Below, piece by piece: positions 9,048 through 60,812 of a stretch of DNA of 64,000 bases. Below the pieces are notes generated by a model that ran no database searches, was not told the origin of the DNA, and was given only the letters and a program-made list of their open reading frames with translations. This DNA is from Thermaerobacter marianensis DSM 12885. Its GTDB lineage: Bacteria > Bacillota > Sulfobacillia > Thermaerobacterales > Thermaerobacteraceae. The stretch spans positions 434,001 through 498,000 of the forward strand of contig NC_014831.1 of NCBI RefSeq assembly GCF_000184705.1. The letters run 5' to 3'. Position numbers and translations under genes: made by a program. Each line of letters starts with the position of its first letter. The stretch's first letter is position 1.

Positions 9048-10901
9048 GTGGAGTTTCGCCGGACGAAGATCGTCTGCACCCTGGGCCCGTCCACCGACGA
9101 TCCCGCGGTCCTGCGCCGCCTGCTCCAGGCGGGCATGGACGTGGCCCGGATCAACCTGTCGCACGGTACCGCCGCCGACCACCGGCGCCGGGTGGAGACC
9201 CTGCGGGCGGTGGCGCAGGAGATGGGCCGCCACGACGTGGGCATCCTCTTCGACACGCGGGGCCCGGAAGTGCGGGTCGGCGCCCTGCCGGGCGGCGCCC
9301 TGGACCTGGCGGCGGGCCAGCGGGTGGCCCTGGTGGCGGCCGGCCATGGCGAGGCGGGCGCGGCCCCCGACGGCGGGCCCGGCGGCCCGGCGCCGGCCGG
9401 TTCGTCCGCAAGCGCCGGTCCCGTGGCCGCTCCTGGCGCGGCCCCTGCCGGGTGCCCCGTGATCCCCGTCTCCTACAGCCGCGTGGCCACCAGCGTCGGG
9501 CCGGGCGACCGCATCCTGCTGGATGACGGCAACCTGGTGCTCACCGTGGAGGACGTGGACGGCGTCTACGTCTACTGCCGGGTGGATGCGGGCGGCCGGT
9601 TGCTCCAGGGCAAGAAGGCCACCCTGCCGGCGGAGAGCCTGGATCTGCCCTACCTCAGCGAAGCCGACCGGGACGACGTGCGCCTGGGCATCGAGCTGGG
9701 CATCGACTTCATCGCCGCCTCCTTCGTGCGGTCGGCGGCCGACGTCCACGCCCTGCGGAGGGTCATCGAGGAGGCGGGCGGCGACCAGTGGGTCATCGCC
9801 AAGATCGAGAACCGCCTGGGCGTGGAGCGCCTGGACGAGATCCTGGCCAGCGCCGACGGCATCATGGTCGCCCGCGGCGACCTGGGCGTGGAGCTGCCGG
9901 TGGAGGACATCCCGCTGCTGCAGAAGCAGATCATCCAGGCGGCCAACCGGGCGGGGAAGCCGGTGATCACGGCCACCCAGATGCTGGAGTCCATGGTCCG
10001 TCACCCGCGGCCGACCCGGGCCGAGAGCACCGACGTGGCCAACGCCATCTTCGACGGCACCGACGCCGTCATGCTGTCGGCCGAGACGGCGGCGGGCGAC
10101 TACCCCGTGGAGGCCGTGGAGATCATGGCCCGCATCGCCCGCCGCACCGAAACGGCCCTGGACTACGGCCGGCGCCTGGCCCGCCTGGCCGGGCAAGAAC
10201 ACCGCACCGTCACCGACGCCGTCAGCTACGCCTCCTGCACTGCCGCCGAGAGCCTGGGCGCCGCCGCCATCCTGACGGCCACCCAGTCGGGTTACACCTC
10301 CCGCATGATCTCGCGCCACCGGCCGCGCCAGCCCATCGTGGCCCTGACGCCCAGCCAGCGGGTGGCGCGCAAGCTCAGCCTGGTGTGGGGCGTGCGGGCC
10401 CTGGTCATCGAGCCGCGGGACAGCGTGGACGGGCTCATCGACCGGGCCCTGCAGGGCGCGGTGGACGGCGGGTTCGTCCGGCCGGGGGATCTGGTGGTGA
10501 TCACCGCCGGCGTGCCCGTGGGCCAGCCCGGCACCACCAACATGCTGCAGGTGCACACCGTGGGCGAGGCGGTGCTCCGCGGCACCGGCGTGGGCCAGGG
10601 CAGCCACACCGGCCCCGTGCGCATCGTGCGCGACCCCGAGGCGGCGGGACCGTTCCACGGGGGCGAGGTGCTGGTCGCCCTGAGCACCGACCGCGACTTC
10701 GTGCCGCTGATCGAGAAGGCCGGCGCCCTGATCACCGAGGAAGGCGGCCTGACCTCCCATGCCGCCATCGTCGGCCTGCACCGCGGCATCCCCACCATCG
10801 TCGGGGCGGCGGGGGCGCTGGAGACGCTCAAGGACGGCGAGACGGTGACCGTCGACGCGCGGCGCGGCCTGGTCTACCGCGGCTGGGCCCGCGTCGGGTA
10901 A
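9048..10901 (+). CDS. pyk: pyruvate kinase with C-terminal PEP-utiliser domain
   Basis: Converts PEP and ADP to pyruvate and ATP. The core shows RTKIVCTLGPS at the start, RINLSHG, the KIENRLGVERLDEI block, GIMVARGDLGVELP and ATQMLESM. Residues from about 535 to the end (617) form the extra mobile PEP-utiliser domain with the TSHAAIVG histidine motif, typical of Bacillus-type enzymes. In the B domain, residues about 100-138 are an Ala/Gly/Pro-rich insertion absent from most homologues. The GTG at 9048 follows GAGGTGATCCCA. It is coupled to pfkA, a common glycolytic pair. Confidence 0.96.
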   Translation: MEFRRTKIVCTLGPSTDDPAVLRRLLQAGMDVARINLSHGTAADHRRRVETLRAVAQEMGRHDVGILFDTRGPEVRVGALPGGALDLAAGQRVALVAAGHGEAGAAPDGGPGGPAPAGSSASAGPVAAPGAAPAGCPVIPVSYSRVATSVGPGDRILLDDGNLVLTVEDVDGVYVYCRVDAGGRLLQGKKATLPAESLDLPYLSEADRDDVRLGIELGIDFIAASFVRSAADVHALRRVIEEAGGDQWVIAKIENRLGVERLDEILASADGIMVARGDLGVELPVEDIPLLQKQIIQAANRAGKPVITATQMLESMVRHPRPTRAESTDVANAIFDGTDAVMLSAETAAGDYPVEAVEIMARIARRTETALDYGRRLARLAGQEHRTVTDAVSYASCTAAESLGAAAILTATQSGYTSRMISRHRPRQPIVALTPSQRVARKLSLVWGVRALVIEPRDSVDGLIDRALQGAVDGGFVRPGDLVVITAGVPVGQPGTTNMLQVHTVGEAVLRGTGVGQGSHTGPVRIVRDPEAAGPFHGGEVLVALSTDRDFVPLIEKAGALITEEGGLTSHAAIVGLHRGIPTIVGAAGALETLKDGETVTVDARRGLVYRGWARVG

Positions 10902-50262: not shown

Positions 50263-50913
50263 ATGCCGGACCGCCACGACGGGCGGCAACGGACCGGCGG
50301 CGCGGACCCCTCGGGTGTCGCCGCGTGGAGCGACGAGGCGCTGGTGCAGCGTGCCCGGGAGGGCGACCTCGATGCCTTCACCGCCCTGGTCGAGCGCTAC
50401 CAGGTGGCGGTGTACAACCTTTGCCTGCGCCTGACGAACCAGCCCGCCGATGCGGCCGACGCGGCCCAGGAGGTCTTCCTGCGGGTGTACACCAACCTCC
50501 GCCGGTTCCAGGGCCGGGGCCCGTTCCGGTCCTGGGTCTACCGGATCGCCGTCAACACGTGTCGCGACGAGCTCCGCCGCCGGCGCCGGCGGCCGGTCCC
50601 CGCCCTGGCTCCTCCCGGACCGGATGCCCACCCCCTGCCCGCCGGGGACGACGGCGACCCCGCCCGGGCCGTGGTGGGCCGGGAGGTCCAGGCTGCGATC
50701 CAGGACGCCCTGGGCCGGTTGCCGGAGGTCTTCCGGACCGTCGTGGTGCTGCGGGACGTGGAAGGACTGTCGTACGAAGAGGTGGCCGCCGTCCTCGGCG
50801 TGTCCATCGGGACCGTGAAGTCGCGGGTCCACCGCGGGCGTGTGATGCTGCGGGACTGGCTGGCCGCGGCGGGCTGGCTGGCCGGCCGCGGGAAGGGGGG
50901 TGACGGGCCGTGA
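50263..50913 (+). CDS. ECF RNA polymerase sigma factor
   Basis: A 216-residue sigma-70 family ECF factor. Region 2 spans about residues 22-95 (ALVQRAREGDLDAFTALVERY, DAADAAQEVFLRVYTNLRRF, FRSWVYRIAVNTCRDELRRRRRR). An Ala/Pro linker precedes region 4 near 140-195 (LGRLPEVFRTVVVLRDVEGLSYEEVAAVLGVSIGTVKSRVHRGR). The ATG at 50263 has GGAGGAGGAGGCGG upstream. It overlaps the downstream zinc-finger gene by four bases (GTGA), as is usual for a sigma/anti-sigma pair. Confidence 0.94.
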   Translation: MPDRHDGRQRTGGADPSGVAAWSDEALVQRAREGDLDAFTALVERYQVAVYNLCLRLTNQPADAADAAQEVFLRVYTNLRRFQGRGPFRSWVYRIAVNTCRDELRRRRRRPVPALAPPGPDAHPLPAGDDGDPARAVVGREVQAAIQDALGRLPEVFRTVVVLRDVEGLSYEEVAAVLGVSIGTVKSRVHRGRVMLRDWLAAAGWLAGRGKGGDGP

Positions 50914-52283
50914 TCGGAGGCTTCGGGCATGTCGACCGCTGGCTGAGTGATTGGCTCGACGGGACCTTGCCAGGCCCGCGGCGCCAGGCGGTCGAGGGCC
51001 ACCTGGCAGCCTGCGCCCGATGCCGCGCCCGGGCGGAGGCGATGCGCGAGACGGTCCGTCAACTGCGGTCCCTCACCCCTGTGCCACCGCCTCCCGACCT
51101 GGTGGCGCGGGTGCGGGCGCGCCTGGCGCAGGATGCCGCCACGGCCCCTGGCGCCGCTGGACCAAGCCATGCCCGCGGTGCCGTACCGGGTCCGGCCCCC
51201 GAGGGTCCGGCGACCGACAGGCCGGTGGCGACGGCCGCAGGCGCCGACCGCCCGGCGGAGGAGGCCACCCGGCGGCCCATGGCCCGGCTGTGGCGTTGGG
51301 TCCAGCGCCGCCCGGGGTGGCGGCCCGCGATGGCCGGCGGCGCCCTGGTGGTGCTCCTGGTGTGGGCGGCAGGGCGCTGGCTGGGCGGGACGGGCGGCGC
51401 CGTGCGCCAGGCCGTGGCGCCGGAGCTGGCCTCGGTGCCGGAGACGGCCGCCCGCGCCGGCGGCTGGGATGCCGCGCAGGAGAACGGCAGCGGCGCTGGG
51501 GCGAATGCGGCCGGTGCCGCTCCGGACACCGCGCCGGGGGCCACCGCGGGCGCGGCGGAGGCATTGGGATCCCAGGCGTCCAGCGCGATGCGGCCGGCCG
51601 CCGCCTCGGGCCGGCTGCTGATCCGCACCGGCCGCCTGGACCTGGTCGTGCCGGACGTGGCGGCTGCCTACCGGGAGGCAGAGGCGATCGCCCGGCGGTA
51701 CGGCGGGTTCGTCCAGGACGCGCGCCTGGACCGCACCGGCGCGGTCGAGGCGGCCAGCCTGACCCTGCGCGTCCCCGACCAGCGGCTGGAGACGGTGATG
51801 GACGAACTGGCTGCCCTGGCCCAGCGGGGGCGCGTGGCGGGCCACTCCATCGAGGCCCAGGACATCTCCTCGCAGTACATCGACGTCAAGGCGCGCCTGG
51901 AGACGCTCCAGGCTCAGGAGGCGCGGCTGCGCCAGCTGGCCTCGCGTTCGGCCGGCATCGACGAGTTGCTGCGGGTGGAACAGGAACTCTGGCGCGTGCG
52001 GGGGGAGATCGAGCAACTGGAGGGACAGGTGCGCTTCTGGGACCAGGCGGTGCAGCTGGCGACCATCGAGGTCGGACTGCGGGCCGTGGAGGCGACGCCG
52101 CCGGAACCGGCGGGCAGCCTGCGGGAACGGGCCGCCCGCGCCTTCCTGCGCTCCCTGCACGGGCTCGGCCAGCTGGTGCAGGCTGCCATTGTGGGATTGG
52201 CCGCGCTGGTGCCTTACCTGGCCGTGGTCGGGGCGGCAGCGGGGGCATGGCTCGGGTGGAGGCGGCGCCACTCCCGGCCTTGA
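50910..52283 (+). CDS. anti-sigma-like protein: zinc finger plus DUF4349
   Basis: A 457-residue membrane protein. Residues about 8-60 form a zinc-finger anti-sigma domain (VEGHLAACARCRAR, HxxxCxxC). An Ala/Pro linker and a transmembrane helix near 137-158 (MAGGALVVLLVWAAGRWLGG) follow. An outer DUF4349 domain with coiled-coil is at about 230-420 (DLVVPDVAAAYREAEAIARRYGGFV, ISSQYIDVKARLETLQAQEARLRQL), and a final helix anchors the C-terminus. It probably holds the ECF factor at the membrane until an envelope signal arrives. GTG start overlaps the sigma stop. Confidence 0.9.
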   Translation: MIGGFGHVDRWLSDWLDGTLPGPRRQAVEGHLAACARCRARAEAMRETVRQLRSLTPVPPPPDLVARVRARLAQDAATAPGAAGPSHARGAVPGPAPEGPATDRPVATAAGADRPAEEATRRPMARLWRWVQRRPGWRPAMAGGALVVLLVWAAGRWLGGTGGAVRQAVAPELASVPETAARAGGWDAAQENGSGAGANAAGAAPDTAPGATAGAAEALGSQASSAMRPAAASGRLLIRTGRLDLVVPDVAAAYREAEAIARRYGGFVQDARLDRTGAVEAASLTLRVPDQRLETVMDELAALAQRGRVAGHSIEAQDISSQYIDVKARLETLQAQEARLRQLASRSAGIDELLRVEQELWRVRGEIEQLEGQVRFWDQAVQLATIEVGLRAVEATPPEPAGSLRERAARAFLRSLHGLGQLVQAAIVGLAALVPYLAVVGAAAGAWLGWRRRHSRP

Positions 52284-52386: not shown

Positions 52387-53745
52387 TCATCCAGCCCAGC
52401 CGGCGAACGTCTGGAGCGACGCCACGGGGTGCGGGCGGTTGACGCCGCCCTCCCGCCCGGCCCAGGCGTGCAGCGCCAGCTGGACGGCGTAGGCCATCAG
52501 ACCCCGGGCCTGCTCGGGCCGCGGGGACGGGCCGTACTGGGGCTTCGCGTTGGCTTCGAAGACCCAGGGCCGGCCCTGGGGATCGAGGCCGACGTCGACC
52601 CCGATCTCGCCGAGCGGGCCGAACCGCGCCTCCAGCGCCAAGGCGACCCGGACCGCCACGCGGGTCGCCTTGGCCTTCAGACCGGCAAGGGCCGGCAAGG
52701 GACCGAAGCGGCGGCGAAACGCCTCCAGCTCGAAGGGCGTGCCGCCGCGGGAGATGTTGGTGGTCACCGTCGCCGGGTGACCCAGGCGGACGACGATGAG
52801 CGGCACCGTCCACGTACCGGTGCCGTCCTTCTTCACCTCGACGCGCAGATCCCAACGGCGGCCGTTCAACCGCGGCAGCTGGATGCCCTGCTGGACCACC
52901 CAGACGCCACCCGCGATCCAGCGCGACAGCACCTCCACCACCTGGGCGGGATCGGCCGCCCGGCTGCGAAGCCGTTGCCGGCCGACCTGTCCCTCGATCC
53001 ACCACCCGCCCGCGACGGCCCGCAACCGCACCACCTCCGTGCCGTGACTGCCCCCGTCGGCCTTGACGAAGACCAGGCGGTGGCGGGAGAGGAAGGCGGC
53101 GAGCTCGGCCGGTGCCTCGAGCCGGACGGTCTCCGGGACCAGGGGGCGGGTGTCGGCGAAGAAGCGCAGGGCTTGATAGGTCTCCCACTTGGGGAACCCG
53201 CTGGCCAGGTTGACGAAGGGGATGGCGTCTTCCTCCCATAACGCCCTGCGCAGCGACCGGGCGGCGGCCCGGGGGCCGGGATCGGGAAAGGTCGCCCGGT
53301 TGTAGATCACATCGGGCAGGGGTATGGTGACCGGCCGGAGCCTTCCGCCCTGCCAGGTCCACCCCCGGATGCGGCCGCCGGCGCGGTCGACGCCCTTAAG
53401 GTCGAAGAAGAAGGGGATGCCGCCCGCCCCACGGACCTCCTGGCTGAGGAGCCGGACGCCTCGCTTCCAGGAGCGCAGCATCGCCGGGGTGACCCAGATG
53501 CCGACCAGGGGACCGACCACCAGACGCTGCCCCCCGTCGGCAGGGAACACGTAGACCGCCTGCCCGCGGTCGAAACCGAAGGCGTCGAGGACCGCTCCAG
53601 GCAGGGCCAGGGTGCGCTGGTCGGGTTCCCAGAGGGACGGAAGCCGGATGACGGCGTGGCCGAGCTGGACCCAGGCTGGCACGGCGGCATGGGAGAGCTC
53701 GCGGACCGTGGCGCGCCGAGCGGCCGTCTCCCGCCCCGGCATCAC
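52387..53745 (-). CDS. YheC/YheD-family ATP-grasp protein, array member A (type I)
   Basis: A 452-residue ATP-grasp protein of the endospore-coat YheC/YheD family. The N-terminal domain (about 25-110) has VGPLVGIWVTP. The family block PLPDVIYNRATFPD and FPKWETYQALRFF are near 140-190. The ATP-grasp part has FVKADGGSHGTEV near 228, an ATP-site Arg in RRWDLRVEVKKDG near 295 and the metal-ligand segment FEANAKPQ near 410. Catalytic residues look intact. In B. subtilis the relatives YheC and YheD localise to the spore coat; the reaction is unknown. It starts four bases inside the end of the neighbouring member B. Confidence 0.88.
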   Translation of the reverse strand: MMPGRETAARRATVRELSHAAVPAWVQLGHAVIRLPSLWEPDQRTLALPGAVLDAFGFDRGQAVYVFPADGGQRLVVGPLVGIWVTPAMLRSWKRGVRLLSQEVRGAGGIPFFFDLKGVDRAGGRIRGWTWQGGRLRPVTIPLPDVIYNRATFPDPGPRAAARSLRRALWEEDAIPFVNLASGFPKWETYQALRFFADTRPLVPETVRLEAPAELAAFLSRHRLVFVKADGGSHGTEVVRLRAVAGGWWIEGQVGRQRLRSRAADPAQVVEVLSRWIAGGVWVVQQGIQLPRLNGRRWDLRVEVKKDGTGTWTVPLIVVRLGHPATVTTNISRGGTPFELEAFRRRFGPLPALAGLKAKATRVAVRVALALEARFGPLGEIGVDVGLDPQGRPWVFEANAKPQYGPSPRPEQARGLMAYAVQLALHAWAGREGGVNRPHPVASLQTFAGWAG

Positions 53746-55130
53746 GGCCGGTTCCCCTCGATGTCCAGCCAGGCGGCGTAGTGCACCGGGAACCGCTGGA
53801 TGCGCTGTTCCGCGCCGGGATCGCCGAGCCGCTGCAGGCTCACCTTCAGCGGCATCCCGTTGACCTCGATCAGGCGCACGGTCCCGTCCTGCAGGACCCC
53901 CAGGTCGATGCCCAGCTCGTACACCGGTCCCAGCGCGGTGTCGATGGCGCGGGCGGTGGCCAGCGCGGCCTCCGCGACGGAGTCGCGCACCGCGGTGGCG
54001 CGCCCGCCGAAGGCATGCTGCAAGACCTGCTCCGGCAGGGCCACCTGCCCCCCGCTGCGGGGGCTGGTGATGGCGCTGCCCAGGGGCGCGATCCGGGCCA
54101 CCACACCCGACACCGTCCAGCGCCCCACGCCGTTCTTCTGCACGAGGACGCGCAGGTCGAAGCGGTTGCCCAGGTATGTGGCGAGCGGCAATCCCTCCTG
54201 CAGGAGGTACACCCGCGGCCCCCGTAGCAAGGGGCGGACCGCGGCGCGCACGGCGTCCGCGTCCGGCAGCAGGCGTTCCACGTTTCCCTGTGCGTCGCGG
54301 TGGGTCAGCAGCCAGCCGCCGGCGCGGCGGCGGGTCAAGCGGTGCACGCCGCGGCCCCGCGAGAGGTCGTCGGGCTTGAGATAGAGATCGCTGAAGCGGC
54401 GCATCGCGCGGGCCAAGGAATCGGGCGTGAGTCGCTCCGTGTAGGCCAGGAGGGAACGCACCGCCGGGACCCGGTGCAGAACATGGTAGGTCTCGAGCTT
54501 GCGGATCTTGCGGTGGGAGAGCAGGGTGCAGCCGAGCGCGCGGGCCCTGGGCGCCAGCTCTTGGGGACGCGGTCCGGCCCCGACGGCGGTGGGATAGAGG
54601 ATCACCCGCGGCAACGGGTAGACCCCGCCGGCCAGGCGCGGCGGGCCGCCTGCCGGCACTTCGACCCGCTCTGCGCGGACCGCCGAGCGGTTCCAGAGGA
54701 TGTCCTCGGGGCCAGCCAGCAGCAGGACGGCCCCCGCTTCGCGGGCGGCGGTGGCCATCTGGGCGATGGCCGGGTCGTCGGCACCGGACCGCAAGGCACG
54801 CAACACGGACCGGGAGGTGACGTAGGCGATCAAGGGGCCGCAGGCCAGGGTGGCGGTGCCCTCCCGCCAGACGGTGAGGGGCGTCCCCGCGGGCAGGCCA
54901 AGGGCTTCGGCCAGGGACGCCGACAACGCCACCTGGTGATCGCCGAGGCCGGGTTCACCCCGCAACTGCCCTGTGACCCGGCGGGTGCCGAACCGAACCG
55001 TGCACGGGCGGTCCTGGGGGAGGCCCAGCCGTTCCACCAGCAGGGGAGAGAGCATGACCACCCGTTCCGCCGGGTTCTCGCGGACCGTCACGCGGACTTC
55101 GAACCGGTCCACCTTGATCCGCCTCCTCAA
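53742..55130 (-). CDS. YheC/YheD-family ATP-grasp protein, array member B (type II)
   Basis: A 462-residue ATP-grasp protein of the second subtype in this array. It has PRVILYPTAVGAG in place of the DVIYNR block, SHRKIRKLETYHVLH, the Lys loop YLKPDDLSRGRGVHRL near 250, the pair LATYLGNRFDLRVLVQKNG near 315-330 and the metal segment LIEVNGMPL near 425. All expected ligands (Lys, Arg, Glu, Asn) are present, so it should bind ATP-Mg. It overlaps members A and C by four bases at each end (ATGA type), so translation is coupled. Confidence 0.87.
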   Translation of the reverse strand: MRRRIKVDRFEVRVTVRENPAERVVMLSPLLVERLGLPQDRPCTVRFGTRRVTGQLRGEPGLGDHQVALSASLAEALGLPAGTPLTVWREGTATLACGPLIAYVTSRSVLRALRSGADDPAIAQMATAAREAGAVLLLAGPEDILWNRSAVRAERVEVPAGGPPRLAGGVYPLPRVILYPTAVGAGPRPQELAPRARALGCTLLSHRKIRKLETYHVLHRVPAVRSLLAYTERLTPDSLARAMRRFSDLYLKPDDLSRGRGVHRLTRRRAGGWLLTHRDAQGNVERLLPDADAVRAAVRPLLRGPRVYLLQEGLPLATYLGNRFDLRVLVQKNGVGRWTVSGVVARIAPLGSAITSPRSGGQVALPEQVLQHAFGGRATAVRDSVAEAALATARAIDTALGPVYELGIDLGVLQDGTVRLIEVNGMPLKVSLQRLGDPGAEQRIQRFPVHYAAWLDIEGNRP

Positions 55131-56473
55131 GGCGCTGCGTCCTCATCGCCGCCGCCGACCGTCAAGCGGGAGCGAATCGGCAGGGCAAGCCCGGTCTCCC
55201 GGCCCGCCCACGCCCGACCGGCCAGCCACACCGCGTACTGCATGGGCCAGCGCGCCTGGGGTACGGTCTGGCCCGGTACCGGCGCGTGGGTCGACTTGGC
55301 GTTGGCCTCGAAGACCTTGGGGCGCCCCTGCCGGTCGAGGCCGAAGTCGACGCCGACCTCGCCCTGGAGCCCGTACCTCGCCTCCAGCGCCATGGCGACC
55401 AGCCGGCCCACGCGGGTGGCAACCGCGTCCAGGTCCCGCAGTACCTTGAGGCCGGCGAACCGGGTCCGGAAATCCTCGAGCAGGAAGATGTCCGCACCCT
55501 GCGCCTCGTTGGTCACCACCGCCGCCGGCGGTCCCCACCGGACGAAGATGAAGGGCACTTCCCACTCCCCCTGCCCGTTCTTCTTCGCCTCGAGCCGGAC
55601 GTCCCAGGGGCGCCCCTCCAGCTGGGGGAGCGGGATGCCTTCCTGAAGGACCCACTGGCCGTCTTCCGTCAGCCGGGTCAGAAAGGCGTGCAGGTCGTCC
55701 AGGTGGCCGAAGCGCTGCTGGATCTGCATCCGCTGGTTGCGTCCCTGGACGCGCCAGCCTCCCCGGGCCGCCTGAATGCGCAGCACCTGACCGCCGGCGC
55801 TGCCGCCATCGGCCTTGAGAAACGCCACCGGGTAGCGGCGCAAGAACCCGGCGAAGGTCTTGCGATCGCCAAACCGGATGGTGGCGGGCACCAGTTCCCT
55901 GGTGGCGCGGAAGAAGCGCAACGCCTCGTAGGTTTCCCACTTGGGGAAGCCGGCGGCCGTGTTGACGAAGGGGATCCGGTCGACGGCGATGAGCTGGCGG
56001 CGCAGTTCCCGCGCCCGGGCCCGTCGCCGCAGGTTGGGATACGTCGCCCGGTTGTAGATCACGTCCGGGAGCGGCAGGACCGCCCGGGCGGGCTTCCCTC
56101 CCCGCTCGACCCAACCCGCGACCCGTCCCCGCCGGCGGTCGATGCCGTCGAGATCGAAGACCACGGGGATCGCCCCCGCGGCCCGCGCTTCCTGCATCAG
56201 GACCCGCAGCGAGGGAGTCCACTGGCGGATCACCGCCCGCGTCACCCAGAGGCCGACCAGCGGCCCCAGGCGGAGCCGCTGCCCGCCGTCCCGAGGCCGC
56301 ACGTGGACTTCCTGATCCGGGGTCAGGCCCAGCTCCCCCATCCAGGCGGGGGGGAGGGCCAGGGTGCGGTTCGCGCCGTCGTACCGCAGCGGGGCGGCCC
56401 GCTCGCCATGCCCGAGATGCACGACGCGTTCCGGAGCGGAACCGTGGAGCGGGACCACCCGCACGCGTTCCAT
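55127..56473 (-). CDS. YheC/YheD-family ATP-grasp protein, array member C (type I)
   Basis: A 448-residue paralogue of member A, sharing the PLPDVIYNRATYPN and GFPKWETYEALRFF blocks, FLKADGGSAGGQV, RPWDVRLEAKKNGQG with the ATP-site Arg, and KVFEANAKS. The catalytic set looks complete. The ATG at 56473 follows AGGGGGGGACACAGG. The frame stays open for 150 more codons upstream, over the end of member D, but with no homologous residues there. A gap of 179 bases separates it from member D, unlike the other tight junctions. Confidence 0.85.
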   Translation of the reverse strand: MERVRVVPLHGSAPERVVHLGHGERAAPLRYDGANRTLALPPAWMGELGLTPDQEVHVRPRDGGQRLRLGPLVGLWVTRAVIRQWTPSLRVLMQEARAAGAIPVVFDLDGIDRRRGRVAGWVERGGKPARAVLPLPDVIYNRATYPNLRRRARARELRRQLIAVDRIPFVNTAAGFPKWETYEALRFFRATRELVPATIRFGDRKTFAGFLRRYPVAFLKADGGSAGGQVLRIQAARGGWRVQGRNQRMQIQQRFGHLDDLHAFLTRLTEDGQWVLQEGIPLPQLEGRPWDVRLEAKKNGQGEWEVPFIFVRWGPPAAVVTNEAQGADIFLLEDFRTRFAGLKVLRDLDAVATRVGRLVAMALEARYGLQGEVGVDFGLDRQGRPKVFEANAKSTHAPVPGQTVPQARWPMQYAVWLAGRAWAGRETGLALPIRSRLTVGGGDEDAAP

Positions 56474-56652
56474 CCTGTGTCCCCCCCTGAGCACCAGGTT
56501 GACGGCGTCCGGCCGTTGCAGGACCACCGGGGTGGCCACCACGGGCCTTGCGCCGCGTCGCCCACCGGTGGGGATGGGAACCAGCCGGCCACCCAAGGTG
56601 GCCACGGCGCCGCTCCGGGCGAGGGCCGGAGGGGTCGCCCACCCGCCCCACC

Positions 56653-58038
56653 CTATGCGGGTGGGGCGGCGGGGGACAGGGGGGCCCGCGCCCATTCCAG
56701 GGCCAAGCCGACCGCGCGATGGATGGGGCAGCGGTAGAGGCGCTGGGCCGCATAGGCGTCCCAGAGGAGGAGCGTGTCGTCCAGCCGTGGCTGTCCTTCC
56801 ACCTGCAACAGGCGCACCGCGCCGTCGGGCAGCAGCGCCAGTTGGACGCCGAGTTCGAACCGTGGACCCGCTCCGGCGTCGACCGCGCGGGCCGCGGCCC
56901 GCGCCACGCGCCCCAGCTCGTCGCAAACTTGCGGCCAGCGGGTGGGGAAGGCGTGGCGCAAGGCGGCCTCCGCGGGGGCAACCCGGCCGCCTGCACCAGG
57001 GCTCGTCAGGACGCAGCCCGGCGCGGCGACGCGGGCGAGGAGCGCGGACACGTCCCAGTGCCCCCGGGCGTCCGGCTGGACCAGGGCGAAGACGTCAAAG
57101 GGGTTTCCCAGATAGGTGGCTAGGGGAAGGGCTTCTTGGACGACGAAGGCGGTGGGGCCGGCGGCGAGCGCGGCCAGGGCCGCCTGGACCGCCCTGGGAT
57201 CGGGAAGCTCCTGCGTGCCGGTCCGGTCTTCTGCTGCGGCCATCAACCGCCAACCCCGATCCTGCCGCGTGAGGCGGTACACGCCGGCTCCACCGGAGGG
57301 GACATCGGGCTTCACGAACAGATCCGGGAACGCCGCGAGAGCCTCGGCGAGGGTGTCCGGGCCGAGACGCCGGGTCCACGGGATGCGCGGGGCCAGGTCC
57401 CCATCGGTGGCCGCCAGCTGGAGCCCCTCCAGGTGGGTGAGGCGGCCGATGCGCAAAACCGTGCAGCCCATCTCCGGCCCGCGGGCGGTGAGGGGGTCGG
57501 ACTCCGGACCCTCGTCGCTGAACACCCGGCGCAGGATCACCCGCGGCACCGGGAACCGGGCTTCCGTCAGGTGCCAGCGTCCGCCGCGGCGTTCCTCGGG
57601 CCGGTACCCCGTGATCGCCTTCGCGTCCACCTGCCCATCGGCGGGCGAGAACAAGCACAGCACGGCGCCCAGTTCCCGGGCGTGCCGGGCGTAGGCGGTG
57701 AAGGGCCGGCCGACGCCCTCGGCGCGCAGCCGGGCGAGGACGCCGCGCGCCACCATGAGGCCGACCAACGGACCCAGTTCGAGGCCTGCGTCCACCGGCT
57801 GCATCGCCATGCGCCCGCCGCCCGGCAGGGCCAGACGCTCGGCCACCGCGGCAGGGACGGCCACCCGCCCTGGGGGGAGACCGGCGTCCTCGTCCAGCCG
57901 GACACGGACGTGCCGCGTGCCGAAGCGAAGGACATGCCGCCCCGGGGGACGTTGCAGGGCGGACAACAGACCCCTGGCCACGCGGACAGGCGCCGCGCGC
58001 CCGGCCTCGATCTCCACGCGAACGAGCAGCCGCACCAT
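56653..58038 (-). CDS. YheC/YheD-family ATP-grasp protein, array member D (type II, probably inactive)
   Basis: A paralogue of member B of about 461 residues (PRVILRRVFSDEG, LPLATYLGNPFDV, LTSPGAGGRVA, FVKPDVPSGGAGVYRL). At three aligned catalytic sites it differs. RFDLRVLV in B is PFDVFALV here (ATP-site Arg to Phe). GIDLGV is GVQLAL (Asp to Gln). IEVNG is LQVEG (metal-binding Glu to Gln and Asn to Glu). It probably cannot catalyse ATP-dependent ligation. Start ATG 58038 or 58047: AGGAGGTGGAT overlaps the first. It heads the leftward array. Confidence 0.83.
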   Translation of the reverse strand: MVRLLVRVEIEAGRAAPVRVARGLLSALQRPPGRHVLRFGTRHVRVRLDEDAGLPPGRVAVPAAVAERLALPGGGRMAMQPVDAGLELGPLVGLMVARGVLARLRAEGVGRPFTAYARHARELGAVLCLFSPADGQVDAKAITGYRPEERRGGRWHLTEARFPVPRVILRRVFSDEGPESDPLTARGPEMGCTVLRIGRLTHLEGLQLAATDGDLAPRIPWTRRLGPDTLAEALAAFPDLFVKPDVPSGGAGVYRLTRQDRGWRLMAAAEDRTGTQELPDPRAVQAALAALAAGPTAFVVQEALPLATYLGNPFDVFALVQPDARGHWDVSALLARVAAPGCVLTSPGAGGRVAPAEAALRHAFPTRWPQVCDELGRVARAAARAVDAGAGPRFELGVQLALLPDGAVRLLQVEGQPRLDDTLLLWDAYAAQRLYRCPIHRAVGLALEWARAPLSPAAPPA

Positions 58039-58106
58039 GACGGTCATCCACCTCCTGCGGGGGATGCGACCCCGGCCGGCGGCCGCACGCCGTTTCTGGC
58101 GGGTCG

Positions 58107-58147
58107 CCCATCACCTTATGCGCACCGCGCAGGGCATGACCGCATAG
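58107..58147 (-). promoter_or_regulatory. candidate sigma-E-like promoter of the ATP-grasp array
   Basis: On the minus strand GGTCATG (58141-58135) is followed after 14 bases by CATAAGGT (58120-58113), similar to sigma-E elements. The start would be about 60 bases before member D. The divergent aminomutase gene begins 38 bases to the right. Confidence 0.35.
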
Positions 58148-58184
58148 CTTGGCTCTGCACAAGTCCCGAAGGAGGCGGTTGGCG

Positions 58185-59270
58185 GTGGGGCGCTACCGTA
58201 CGGACATCCGCGAGATCGAGCAGCTTGCCGCCGAAGAGCGCCAGCGGTTGCGGCCGGTGACGGAGACCTACGTCTTCCGGGTCAACGACTACTACCTCTC
58301 TCTCATCGACTGGGACGATCCGGACGATCCCATCCGCCGCATCGTCATCCCCTCGGAGGTGGAGCTGGCAGAGTACGGGAGCCTCGACCCTTCGGACGAG
58401 GAGAGCAACTACGTGGCACCCGGCTGCCAGCACAAGTACGGGCCGACCGCCCTGCTGCTGGTCTCCAAGGTGTGCGGGGCCTATTGCCGGTTCTGCTTCC
58501 GCAAGCGGCTCTTCCGCGAGGACGTGGAGGAGCACCACGTCAGCATGGACGTCGAACCCGGCCTGCGGTACATTGCGGCGCATCCGGAGATCACCAACGT
58601 GCTGCTCACCGGGGGCGACCCCCTGATGCTGAGCCCCCGGCGGCTGGACCAGATCCTGACGCGGCTCCGCGCCATCCCGCACGTGAAGGTCATCCGCATC
58701 GGGACCAAGATCCCGGCCTTCGAGCCCATGCGGGTGACGGACAACCCGGAGCTGCTCGAGGTGCTGCGGCGCCACTCGCGGGCCGACGCCCGCATCCACT
58801 TCTCCCTGCACTTCAACCACCCACGCGAGATGACGGAAGAGGCCCTGCGGTGCATCATCGCGCTGCAGGAGGTGGGGGTCACCCTGGTCAACCAGACGCC
58901 GTTGCTGCGGCGCGTCAACGACGACCCGGCCGTCCTGGCGGAGCTCCTGGAGCGGCTCACCTGGTGGGGGATCGCGCCGTACTACATCTTCCAGAACCGG
59001 CCGGTGGCGGGCAACGCGGACTTCGTCGTGCCGCTGCGGGAGGGGTACCGCATCGTCGAGCAGGCCAAGGCCCGGGTCTCGGGCTATGCCAAGCGGGTGC
59101 GCTACGTCATGAGCCACGCGACGGGCAAGATCGAGATCCTGGCGGTGGAGGGCGAGCGGATCTACCTCAAGTACCACCAGGCGCGGAATCCCGAAGACTA
59201 CGGCCGGTTCCTGGTCTGCCGGTTGACCGACGACGCGGCCTGGTTCGACGATCTCCAGCCGGTCGCATAG
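58185..59270 (+). CDS. kamA: KamA-family radical SAM aminomutase (lysine 2,3-aminomutase-like)
   Basis: A 361-residue radical SAM enzyme. The cluster motif CGAYCRFCFRKR (CxxxCxxC) is near residue 104. The body follows lysine 2,3-aminomutase (NVLLTGGDPLMLSPRRLDQIL, IRIGTKIPAFEPMRVT, HFSLHFNHPREMT, NQTPLLRRVND, YYIFQNRPVAGNADF). In place of the PGGGGK PLP-lysine motif it has SHATGKIEIL, so Lys there is the likely PLP anchor. It would move the amino group of lysine or a related substrate from C2 to C3, giving a beta-amino acid. The GTG at 58185 follows GAAGGAGG; an upstream TTG has no site. Confidence 0.88.
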   Translation: MGRYRTDIREIEQLAAEERQRLRPVTETYVFRVNDYYLSLIDWDDPDDPIRRIVIPSEVELAEYGSLDPSDEESNYVAPGCQHKYGPTALLLVSKVCGAYCRFCFRKRLFREDVEEHHVSMDVEPGLRYIAAHPEITNVLLTGGDPLMLSPRRLDQILTRLRAIPHVKVIRIGTKIPAFEPMRVTDNPELLEVLRRHSRADARIHFSLHFNHPREMTEEALRCIIALQEVGVTLVNQTPLLRRVNDDPAVLAELLERLTWWGIAPYYIFQNRPVAGNADFVVPLREGYRIVEQAKARVSGYAKRVRYVMSHATGKIEILAVEGERIYLKYHQARNPEDYGRFLVCRLTDDAAWFDDLQPVA

Positions 59271-59426
59271 GCGGCCCGGGCCGTCCAGCCGCCGGTGACC
59301 CCGGTCCCGCCGTCGTCGTCGCACGCCCCAGGCAAAGGGGACGGGGGTCCCGCAGCGGATCGGTCGTCGGAGCCGCGCCCGCGGGGATCCGCCGCGGGGG
59401 CCGGCTTCGGGCAGGAGGGAGGCGAC

Positions 59427-60812
59427 ATGCTCGAGGCGGTACGGATCCGTCCCTGTTCCGCAACCGGCCTCCTGGTCGGGCCGGATGCCCAGGCGACCAT
59501 CGGGATCCGCGGGCGCCGTCATGTCACGCTGTGCCACGGCAACTGCCGGGAGGTGGTCGGGGCCTGGCGGGACCCGGCGGTGCCGCCCGGGGAGATCTGG
59601 CTGCCGCGCGGCGTGGTGGATCGGCTGCTGGCGGTGCCCGGCATCCCCTACGACGTGCGCTGGGACGGGCGGGAACTCCGGCTGGGCCCCGTGGTCGCCG
59701 TGATCGTGCCGCAACGATCCCTGGCGCCATCGCCGGACCGGTGGGCCGATTGGGCGGCGGCCTACGACCGGGTGCGCGGCCTCTTGTTCGTCACCGATCG
59801 CGCCCACCTGGACCTGGAGCGAGGCCGGGCCAGCGGCTACTACCTGCGGCCGGACCCCCGGGGCGGGCAATGGCAGTGGGGCCGGTTCCCCCTGCCCGAG
59901 GCGGCGTACCGGCGCGCCGCATTGCCCGCCGCCTTGTACGAGCAGCTGCCGCAGCGGGGCACGCGCCTGTTCGACACCGAGTGCGCGGACAAGTGGACCG
60001 TCTACCGGTGGCTGTCCGCCCGGCCCGCCGTGGCGCCTTACCTGCCGTGGACGGTTCCCGTGGAGCGGTTGGAGGACCTGCCTGCGCTGGTGCGCTGCCG
60101 CGGGCGCCTGATGCTCAAGCGCCGGGAAGGATGCCGGGGGCGCGGGCTGCTGGCCGTCTGGGGCGACGGCAGCGCGGGGTTTTGGGTCCAGCGCCGGGAC
60201 GAACCCGCACCCCGGCACGTCCCCGGCGACCGGGAGCTGATCGCCTGCCTGCGCCGCGAGTTCGGTCCCCACCGCTACCTGGCCCAGCAGGCGGTGGACC
60301 TGCCGGAGCGGGCCGGGCGGCGGATGGACCTTCGCGTCATCATGCAACGCGACGCCCGGGGAGCGTGGCGGTGCACCGGCGGGGCGGCCCGCTTCGGCAA
60401 GCCCGGCCACATCGCCAGCAACTTCGTCTGGGAAGGGGGCTTCGGCTGCGCGCCGGACCGTGGCCTGCGCCTCGCCTTGGGCCTCGACGCCCGGGCGGCC
60501 CGCAGGCTCTGGGACGGCGTGCGGGAAGCCGCCCTGCGCGTCTGCCAGGCGCTGGATGCCTACGGCGAGTTCGGCGACCTCGGCCTGGACATGGCCGTCG
60601 ATCGCGCAGGGTGCATCTGGCTGCTCGAGGTGAACTGCGGCCTGCAGGTCCACCGGCTGGCAGCATTCGACGGCGGCGCCGAGGCCGTCCGGCGCGTGCG
60701 GCAGACCCCCCTGCTCTATGCCCGCCACCTGGCCGGGTGGCCTGCGGTCGAGCCGCGAGCGCCCTCGTTCCTCCGCAGCCGAGCGGCAGGGGCGGGCGCC
60801 GTCCGGCCGTGA
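59427..60812 (+). CDS. YheC/YheD-family ATP-grasp protein, array member E
   Basis: A 461-residue, more divergent ATP-grasp protein on the plus strand, 156 bases after the aminomutase gene. The N-domain has LRLGPVVAVIVPQRSLAP. Later come FPLPEAAYRRAALP and TECADKWTVYRWLS, the Lys loop LMLKRREGCRGRG near 230, YLAQQAVDLPERAGRRMDLRVIMQRD with the ATP-site Arg near 300 and the metal segment WLLEVNCGLQ near 395. Ligands look intact. The ATG at 59427 follows AGGAGGGAGGCGAC. It may be cotranscribed with the aminomutase gene, which ties that enzyme to the ATP-grasp set. Confidence 0.86.
   Translation: MLEAVRIRPCSATGLLVGPDAQATIGIRGRRHVTLCHGNCREVVGAWRDPAVPPGEIWLPRGVVDRLLAVPGIPYDVRWDGRELRLGPVVAVIVPQRSLAPSPDRWADWAAAYDRVRGLLFVTDRAHLDLERGRASGYYLRPDPRGGQWQWGRFPLPEAAYRRAALPAALYEQLPQRGTRLFDTECADKWTVYRWLSARPAVAPYLPWTVPVERLEDLPALVRCRGRLMLKRREGCRGRGLLAVWGDGSAGFWVQRRDEPAPRHVPGDRELIACLRREFGPHRYLAQQAVDLPERAGRRMDLRVIMQRDARGAWRCTGGAARFGKPGHIASNFVWEGGFGCAPDRGLRLALGLDARAARRLWDGVREAALRVCQALDAYGEFGDLGLDMAVDRAGCIWLLEVNCGLQVHRLAAFDGGAEAVRRVRQTPLLYARHLAGWPAVEPRAPSFLRSRAAGAGAVRP

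Follow-up and report, generated by a model that had tools for sequence, protein, structure and literature searches.

The stretch of DNA analysed here (in the following: the window) comprises 64,000 nucleotides of the genome of Thermaerobacter marianensis DSM 12885 and carries five genes of the YheC/D ATP-grasp family (PF14398) that flank a single gene for a KamA-family radical S-adenosylmethionine (SAM) aminomutase (kamA). In a profile search of the window the five YheC/D genes were recovered with Pfam E-values of 2e-58, 5e-55, 6e-51, 4e-32 and 7e-60 and scores of 112-203 bits (cut-off 26.8). The sixth gene matches the radical SAM domain PF04055 and, with 243.3 bits over a cut-off of 199.2, the KamA family TIGR00238. 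These assignments bear out the initial annotation, which had described five YheC/D ATP-grasp genes around a KamA gene at this place. The five genes also represent the entire PF14398 complement of the 2,844,696-base genome. An earlier statement that three of the genes are coupled by four-base overlaps is confirmed for genes 1 and 2, which share the sequence GTGA when the revised starts are used, but is not secure for genes 2 and 3: with the likely GTG start of gene 2 behind AGGAGG, a gap of about 14 bases is left that closes only if the longer TTG start is used (Table 1).

Table 1. Features of the kamA-YheC/D locus in the window. Residues of the ligases are given in the numbering of gene 1; LAM, lysine 2,3-aminomutase; PLP, pyridoxal phosphate; pLDDT, predicted local distance difference test.
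Feature	Position	Strand	Remarks
Gene 1, YheC/D ATP-grasp ligase, type A	52387..53745	-	catalytic and Mg-site residues intact; AlphaFold2 model with pLDDT 92; RimK/GshB/LysX fold predicted
Gene 2, YheC/D ATP-grasp ligase, type B	53742..55112	-	residues intact; likely start GTG 55112, longer TTG start at 55130
Gene 3, YheC/D ATP-grasp ligase, type A	55127..56473	-	52% identity to gene 1; residues intact; likely start ATG 56473
Gene 4, YheC/D paralogue, type B	56653..58047	-	41% identity to gene 2; K185H, R300F, D383Q, E396Q, N398E; predicted inactive pseudoenzyme
Divergent promoter region, 137 bp	58048..58184		promoter-like sites on both strands
KamA-family radical SAM/PLP aminomutase, 361 aa	58185..59270	+	likely start GTG 58185; FxxRP (Arg for LAM Asp293) and MSHxxGK subfamily
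Gene 5, YheC/D ATP-grasp ligase, third type	59427..60812	+	residues intact; likely start ATG 59427 with GGAGG

The five ligase genes belong to three types, namely A (genes 1 and 3), B (genes 2 and 4) and gene 5, which stands apart; identity between the types amounts to 24-32%. In phylogenetic trees types A and B form separate clades (support 100/100) that contain the kamA-linked genes, and read in the direction of transcription the leftward array has the order B-A-B-A and thus represents a doubled pair. An alignment revealed that the ATP- and Mg-site residues K227, R300, D383, E396 and N398 are present in genes 1, 2, 3 and 5. Gene 4 has kept K227 and has lost the other four as well as K185. 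The five lost residues are retained in nearly all of the other 40 aligned proteins of the PF14398 family, and because of their loss gene 4 is probably a dead enzyme. A description of the locus as five equal copies was rejected on the basis of the three types in the tree and of the active-site residues lost in gene 4. The AlphaFold2 model of gene 1 matches the structures of RimK (Z 22.4), GshB (22.0), LysX/ArgX (21.9) and TTLL6 (18.5), and the fold predicted for its catalytic region is of the RimK/LysX/GshB type (Z ≈22). These structural neighbours ligate amino acids, in many cases ones similar to glutamate, to a peptide or protein. Residues 1-75 of gene 1, a part that was not searched alone, are covered by none of the listed structure matches, and a sequence search of the PDB with gene 5 gave chance matches only.

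KamA was compared by alignment with the LAM of structure 2a5h and with a set of 90 relatives. The three cluster cysteines (CxxxCxxC), the carboxylate-binding Arg134 and the PLP-lysine signature of 2a5h are all kept, but both aspartate residues that bind lysine are missing: Asp293 is replaced by Arg, and the position of Asp330 is non-acidic. The arginine is found in 90/90 relatives, the motif FxxRP in 89/90 and MSHxxGK in 87/90; the SHATGK motif by which the initial annotation had characterised the protein turns out to be one variant of this broader signature, MSHxxGK(I/V). KamA stays under the cut-offs of the models for LAM (AblA, TIGR03820; 233.2 vs 525.4 bits), glutamate 2,3-aminomutase (TIGR04368; 244.2 vs 650 bits, the second best model by score), arginine 2,3-aminomutase (TIGR04468; 221.7 vs 600 bits) and EpmB (TIGR03821; E 2e-60, 204.8 vs 369.3 bits). 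Judged by its sequence, the enzyme is not a lysine 2,3-aminomutase, and beta-lysine, previously considered as its product, was rejected on the grounds of the missing residues and the model cut-offs. Glutamate 2,3-aminomutases of the Clostridioides difficile type have a basic residue, Lys, at the place of LAM Asp293. An acidic substrate is therefore a fair guess for the present KamA, and no more.

The divergent region between gene 4 and kamA carries two sequences that resemble sites of mother-cell sigma factors, AC-N17-CATAGCTT on the plus strand (starting at 58124 and directed towards kamA) and CATAAGGT on the minus strand, directed towards gene 4. Two of the eight occurrences of CATANNNT in the whole window fall into this region. 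In a set of 24 sequences from the window genome and its relatives, with gene calls made in this analysis, CATANNNT was present upstream of 13/27 leading YheC/D or kamA genes vs 21/210 other genes (p=6e-6), a value to be read in the light of a motif picked after seeing the window, of the relatedness of the genomes and of sigma E/K consensus letters taken from general knowledge. When the window's own genes are omitted, 11/23 leading genes have the motif. The two-part motif, with AC at a distance of 15-17 bases, precedes 8/27 leading genes vs 7/210 controls; four of these seven control matches are cotE genes and constitute a positive control, one of them (L140:10062-10643) having been assigned by similarity and a CotE match. 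Putative mother-cell (sigma E/K) promoter-like sites are thus enriched upstream of YheC/D and kamA genes, and the locus in the window has such sites by the consensus used.

A link to sporulation is also suggested by the genomic position of related genes. Five relatives (G472, G450, G233, G404 and G457) have YheC/D arrays close to cotE, and the arrays of G450 and G457 additionally include a COOH-NH2 ligase (PF14395). As an observation in its own right, PF14395 ligases (Pfam-confirmed) directly follow YheC/D arrays at L139:2058-3458 and L127:10555-11895, similar-looking proteins are found in L140, L141 and L142, and cotE is nearby in L127, L138, L139, L140 and L117, a recurrent two-ligase spore locus in the class. 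T. marianensis itself has SpoIVA, and terminal spores of this marine thermophile (strain 7p75a) are rarely seen (PMC3035304). In Bacillus subtilis, yheC and yheD belong to the sigma E regulon and are raised by SpoIIID (PMC517825), YheD forms a shell on the spore and has no known function (PMC7911427), and kamA is part of the sigma E regulon (PMC6522883).

The neighbourhood of kamA is conserved. A survey of 154 genomes of the class (Sulfobacillia) found the KamA subfamily in three, T. marianensis, G094 and G472, which represent three families; their KamA proteins are 68-72% identical and form one clade (support 99/92). In 3/3 of these genomes kamA is divergent from YheC/D genes of types A and B, at a spacing of 120-130 bases in G094 and G472, and nowhere in the 154 genomes does kamA occur without A/B. 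YheC/D genes are present in 25/101 sampled genomes of the class, mostly as types other than A/B. In G472, B and A are fused into one protein of 755 amino acids (B-A), and because of this fusion we assume that A and B work together. A conserved neighbourhood in related genomes, which the initial annotation had named as a check, was accordingly found in three families of the class, beyond chance.

Taken together, the conserved linkage, the ligase fold, the state of the active-site residues and the promoter-like sites, all read from sequence, lead us to a tentative interpretation, on which we are close to evenly divided: the locus may encode a mother-cell (sporulation) array of amide ligases with its own aminomutase, by which a beta-amino acid other than beta-lysine, perhaps beta-glutamate, would be ligated to a peptide of the spore surface. 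KamA would move the amino group of an alpha-amino acid from C2 to C3, the substrate most likely having an acidic side chain (glutamate or aspartate). Acting as a pair, ligases A and B would convert a carboxylate to the acyl-phosphate and attach the beta-amino acid to a coat protein or peptide by a reaction like that of RimK, LysX or the tubulin ligases. The ligated product would be located within the spore surface or upon it. Gene 4 may be a non-catalytic partner or a decaying copy, and gene 5 may add another residue. Of the beta-amino-acid tag on the spore surface that the initial annotation had proposed, the general idea agrees with the neighbourhood, the mother-cell promoter-like sites, the arrays near cotE and the peptide-ligase fold; the part concerning lysine and beta-lysine had to be given up, and the spore-surface product is a putative one.

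Several observations weigh against this interpretation. The substrate, the product, the joining reaction and the location on the spore are all inferred, and the Arg in place of Asp293 excludes, by sequence, the binding mode of lysine but is no proof of an acidic substrate. No CotE is detectable in the T. marianensis genome, so that the locus lacks the proximity to cotE seen in relatives. Type B occurs without kamA in G448 and G429, both from another family (in G429 together with an A-like fragment), where the A/B-type genes sit between pst-type phosphate transport genes and phoU (L164:8793-10166; L165/L166; names from sequence). Among 80 kamA loci from bacteria and one archaeon outside the class, YheC/D genes within 10 kb were found in a single one, that of Marinithermofilum abyssi, and since this organism has 20 YheC/D genes the adjacency may be due to chance. 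The tested genomes of Zixibacteria, Acidobacteria and Planctomycetes with the same KamA have no YheC/D. As A/B genes are found without kamA and the KamA subfamily is found without YheC/D, neither strictly depends on the other. Finally, the cluster is absent in three other Thermaerobacter species, which shows that the genus can dispense with the locus.

In these three species the flanks of the cluster are kept (glycosyltransferase, extracytoplasmic function (ECF) sigma factor, DUF4349 gene and polA), and a subtilase gene or a transposon-like element is present at the site of the cluster instead. The element in G158 (L136:10366-12221) consists of a transposase and a resolvase-like gene, both named from sequence. 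Decaying B-like YheC/D remnants are located near purA in two of the three species (L118:9813-10361 and, in two frames, L119 at ~9689-10200). A genome of the sister genus (G465) has retained genes 3-2-1 in this order with 58-68% identity on a short contig without kamA. A recent insertion in T. marianensis is for this reason not favoured, and loss of the cluster in the other three Thermaerobacter is likelier. In the window, the ECF sigma factor and a following zf-HC2 anti-sigma domain fused to DUF4349 occupy positions 50263-52283, an arrangement that is conserved upstream of polA across the genus.

A general linkage of KamA and YheC/D across bacteria was not found in the 80 loci outside the class, M. 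abyssi excepted, and the kamA of most Bacilli has no YheC/D neighbour. The kamA of M. abyssi is surrounded by consecutive YheC/D genes, the nearest of which groups as the sister of type A (96/95 to 97/97), and this series adjoins a complete gene set for 2-aminoethylphosphonate. This set (L010:3502-6681) comprises phosphoenolpyruvate mutase, phosphonopyruvate decarboxylase and 2-aminoethylphosphonate transaminase, all over their equivalog cut-offs; the ligases of this organism may also use a phosphonate as substrate. Genomes G537 and G539 (those of L008 and L010) have 20 PF14398 matches each, scattered over the genome, which indicates an expansion of the family in Thermoactinomycetaceae. In Zixibacteria the genes next to kamA encode a symporter of the sodium:dicarboxylate type (GltP-like) and an AGCS carrier, and those in alkaliphilic Bacillaceae an aminotransferase of class III, an RpiR regulator and a fused tripartite ATP-independent periplasmic (TRAP) transporter. 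Such neighbours suit a free amino acid as substrate. L051:3845-11170 and about 20 similar loci of alkaliphilic or halophilic Bacillaceae combine KamA with a HemL-like class III aminotransferase, RpiR and TAXI-TRAP and perhaps encode a catabolic pathway through a beta-amino acid.

These transporter and aminotransferase neighbours are in agreement with the strongest rival explanation, a shared regulon: kamA and YheC/D would both be expressed in the mother cell, and the aminomutase would serve the breakdown or recycling of amino acids in sporulation without feeding the ligases. The existence of A/B ligases without kamA and of the KamA subfamily without YheC/D points in the same direction, as does the KamA of B. 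subtilis, which is produced only in sporulation and has no known physiological function (PMC6522883). We nevertheless consider this explanation unlikely, because kamA of the class is confined to the company of the A/B pair in all three families although YheC/D genes mostly of other types are available in a quarter of the sampled genomes, and because neither a transporter nor an aminotransferase was observed immediately next to kamA in the class. It is also conceivable, but rather improbable, that KamA and the ligases produce a soluble peptide with a beta-amino acid (an antibiotic, a storage or a protective compound) and modify no surface at all. In some antibiotic pathways the product of an aminomutase is joined by a stand-alone ligase, the RimK/GshB/LysX-type fold suits small peptides as well as protein tagging, and several ligase types are assembled in one locus. 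The conserved block, however, contains no transporter, resistance or other tailoring gene, and the YheC/D arrays near cotE in relatives and the putative mother-cell promoter-like sites argue for the spore.

An even less probable function of KamA is the synthesis of beta-glutamate or another beta-amino acid as compatible solute, to which the YheC/D genes would be incidental. T. marianensis needs sea salts (PMC3035304), many Bacilli with the KamA subfamily are halophiles or alkaliphiles, and beta-glutamate is a known osmolyte (PMC1224877). The conserved A/B linkage and the putative mother-cell-type promoter sites are at odds with such a role, and the related acetyl-beta-lysine pathway was rejected since its partner is missing: the best match to the acetyltransferase AblB in the genome reaches 20.5 bits at a cut-off of 205.1. 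A supply of (R)-beta-lysine for the modification of elongation factor P, as performed by EpmB, has almost nothing to recommend it beyond membership in the same superfamily, to which the E-value of the EpmB model testifies. This model failed at its cut-off, the lysine-binding aspartates are missing, and the best match to EpmA in the genome (genX, 248.6) is under the cut-off of 286.9; beta-lysylation of elongation factor P was rejected on these grounds.

We return to the interpretation as a mother-cell ligase array with its own aminomutase. Many spore formers have YheC/D proteins, and YheD is located on the B. subtilis spore, yet no reaction of these proteins is known (PMC7911427). The present locus joins YheC/D and KamA physically, and the conservation of the A/B pair across families together with the natural B-A fusion provides a concrete hypothesis that leads from substrate to ligase. 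If it is true, the coat would contain a beta-amino acid, a kind of chemistry new to spores. A more far-reaching version, which we regard as possible but doubtful, is a sporulation pathway independent of ribosomes and tRNA in which the aminomutase product (possibly beta-glutamate) is built into the spore surface by paired YheC/D ligases; such a pathway would give the coat a modification that resists proteases and would for the first time assign a chemical function to YheC/D. A literature search found no paper that joins YheC/D with an aminomutase. The coupling of the two enzyme families is real, conserved and, as far as the searched literature shows, unreported; it does not constitute a new class of system.

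Among known systems, the glutamate 2,3-aminomutase of the C. difficile type resembles the present KamA in the basic residue at the Asp293 position (Lys there, Arg here) and differs from it as another subfamily by sequence (244 vs 650 bits). B. subtilis KamA (YodO) belongs to the same radical SAM/PLP family, has ≈60% identity to clostridial LAM and makes beta-lysine (PMC6522883), whereas the window enzyme has neither of the lysine-binding aspartates and stays under the LAM cut-off. RimK, LysX/ArgX and GshB, enzymes that either attach Glu or aminoadipate to a peptide or protein or synthesise glutathione, provide the nearest solved folds for gene 1 (Z 21-22 across ≈260-285 residues), at an identity of just 16-21%; YheC/D proteins carry in addition an N-terminal region of ≈75 residues outside the matches. 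In the amidoligase clusters of Iyer et al. (2009), ATP-grasp and COOH-NH2 ligases are reportedly predicted to make peptide-like modifications, which is reminiscent of the PF14395 ligases that accompany YheC/D arrays in relatives; we know of no aminomutase in that proposal. Also close to the present locus are the spore envelope proteins YheC and YheD of B. subtilis, which belong to the same ATP-grasp family PF14398, SpoIVA being present in T. marianensis as well. Contrary to the B. subtilis yheCD genes, which are not known to have an aminomutase neighbour, T. marianensis combines a doubled A/B pair and a ligase of a third type, one copy being apparently dead, with an aminomutase gene.

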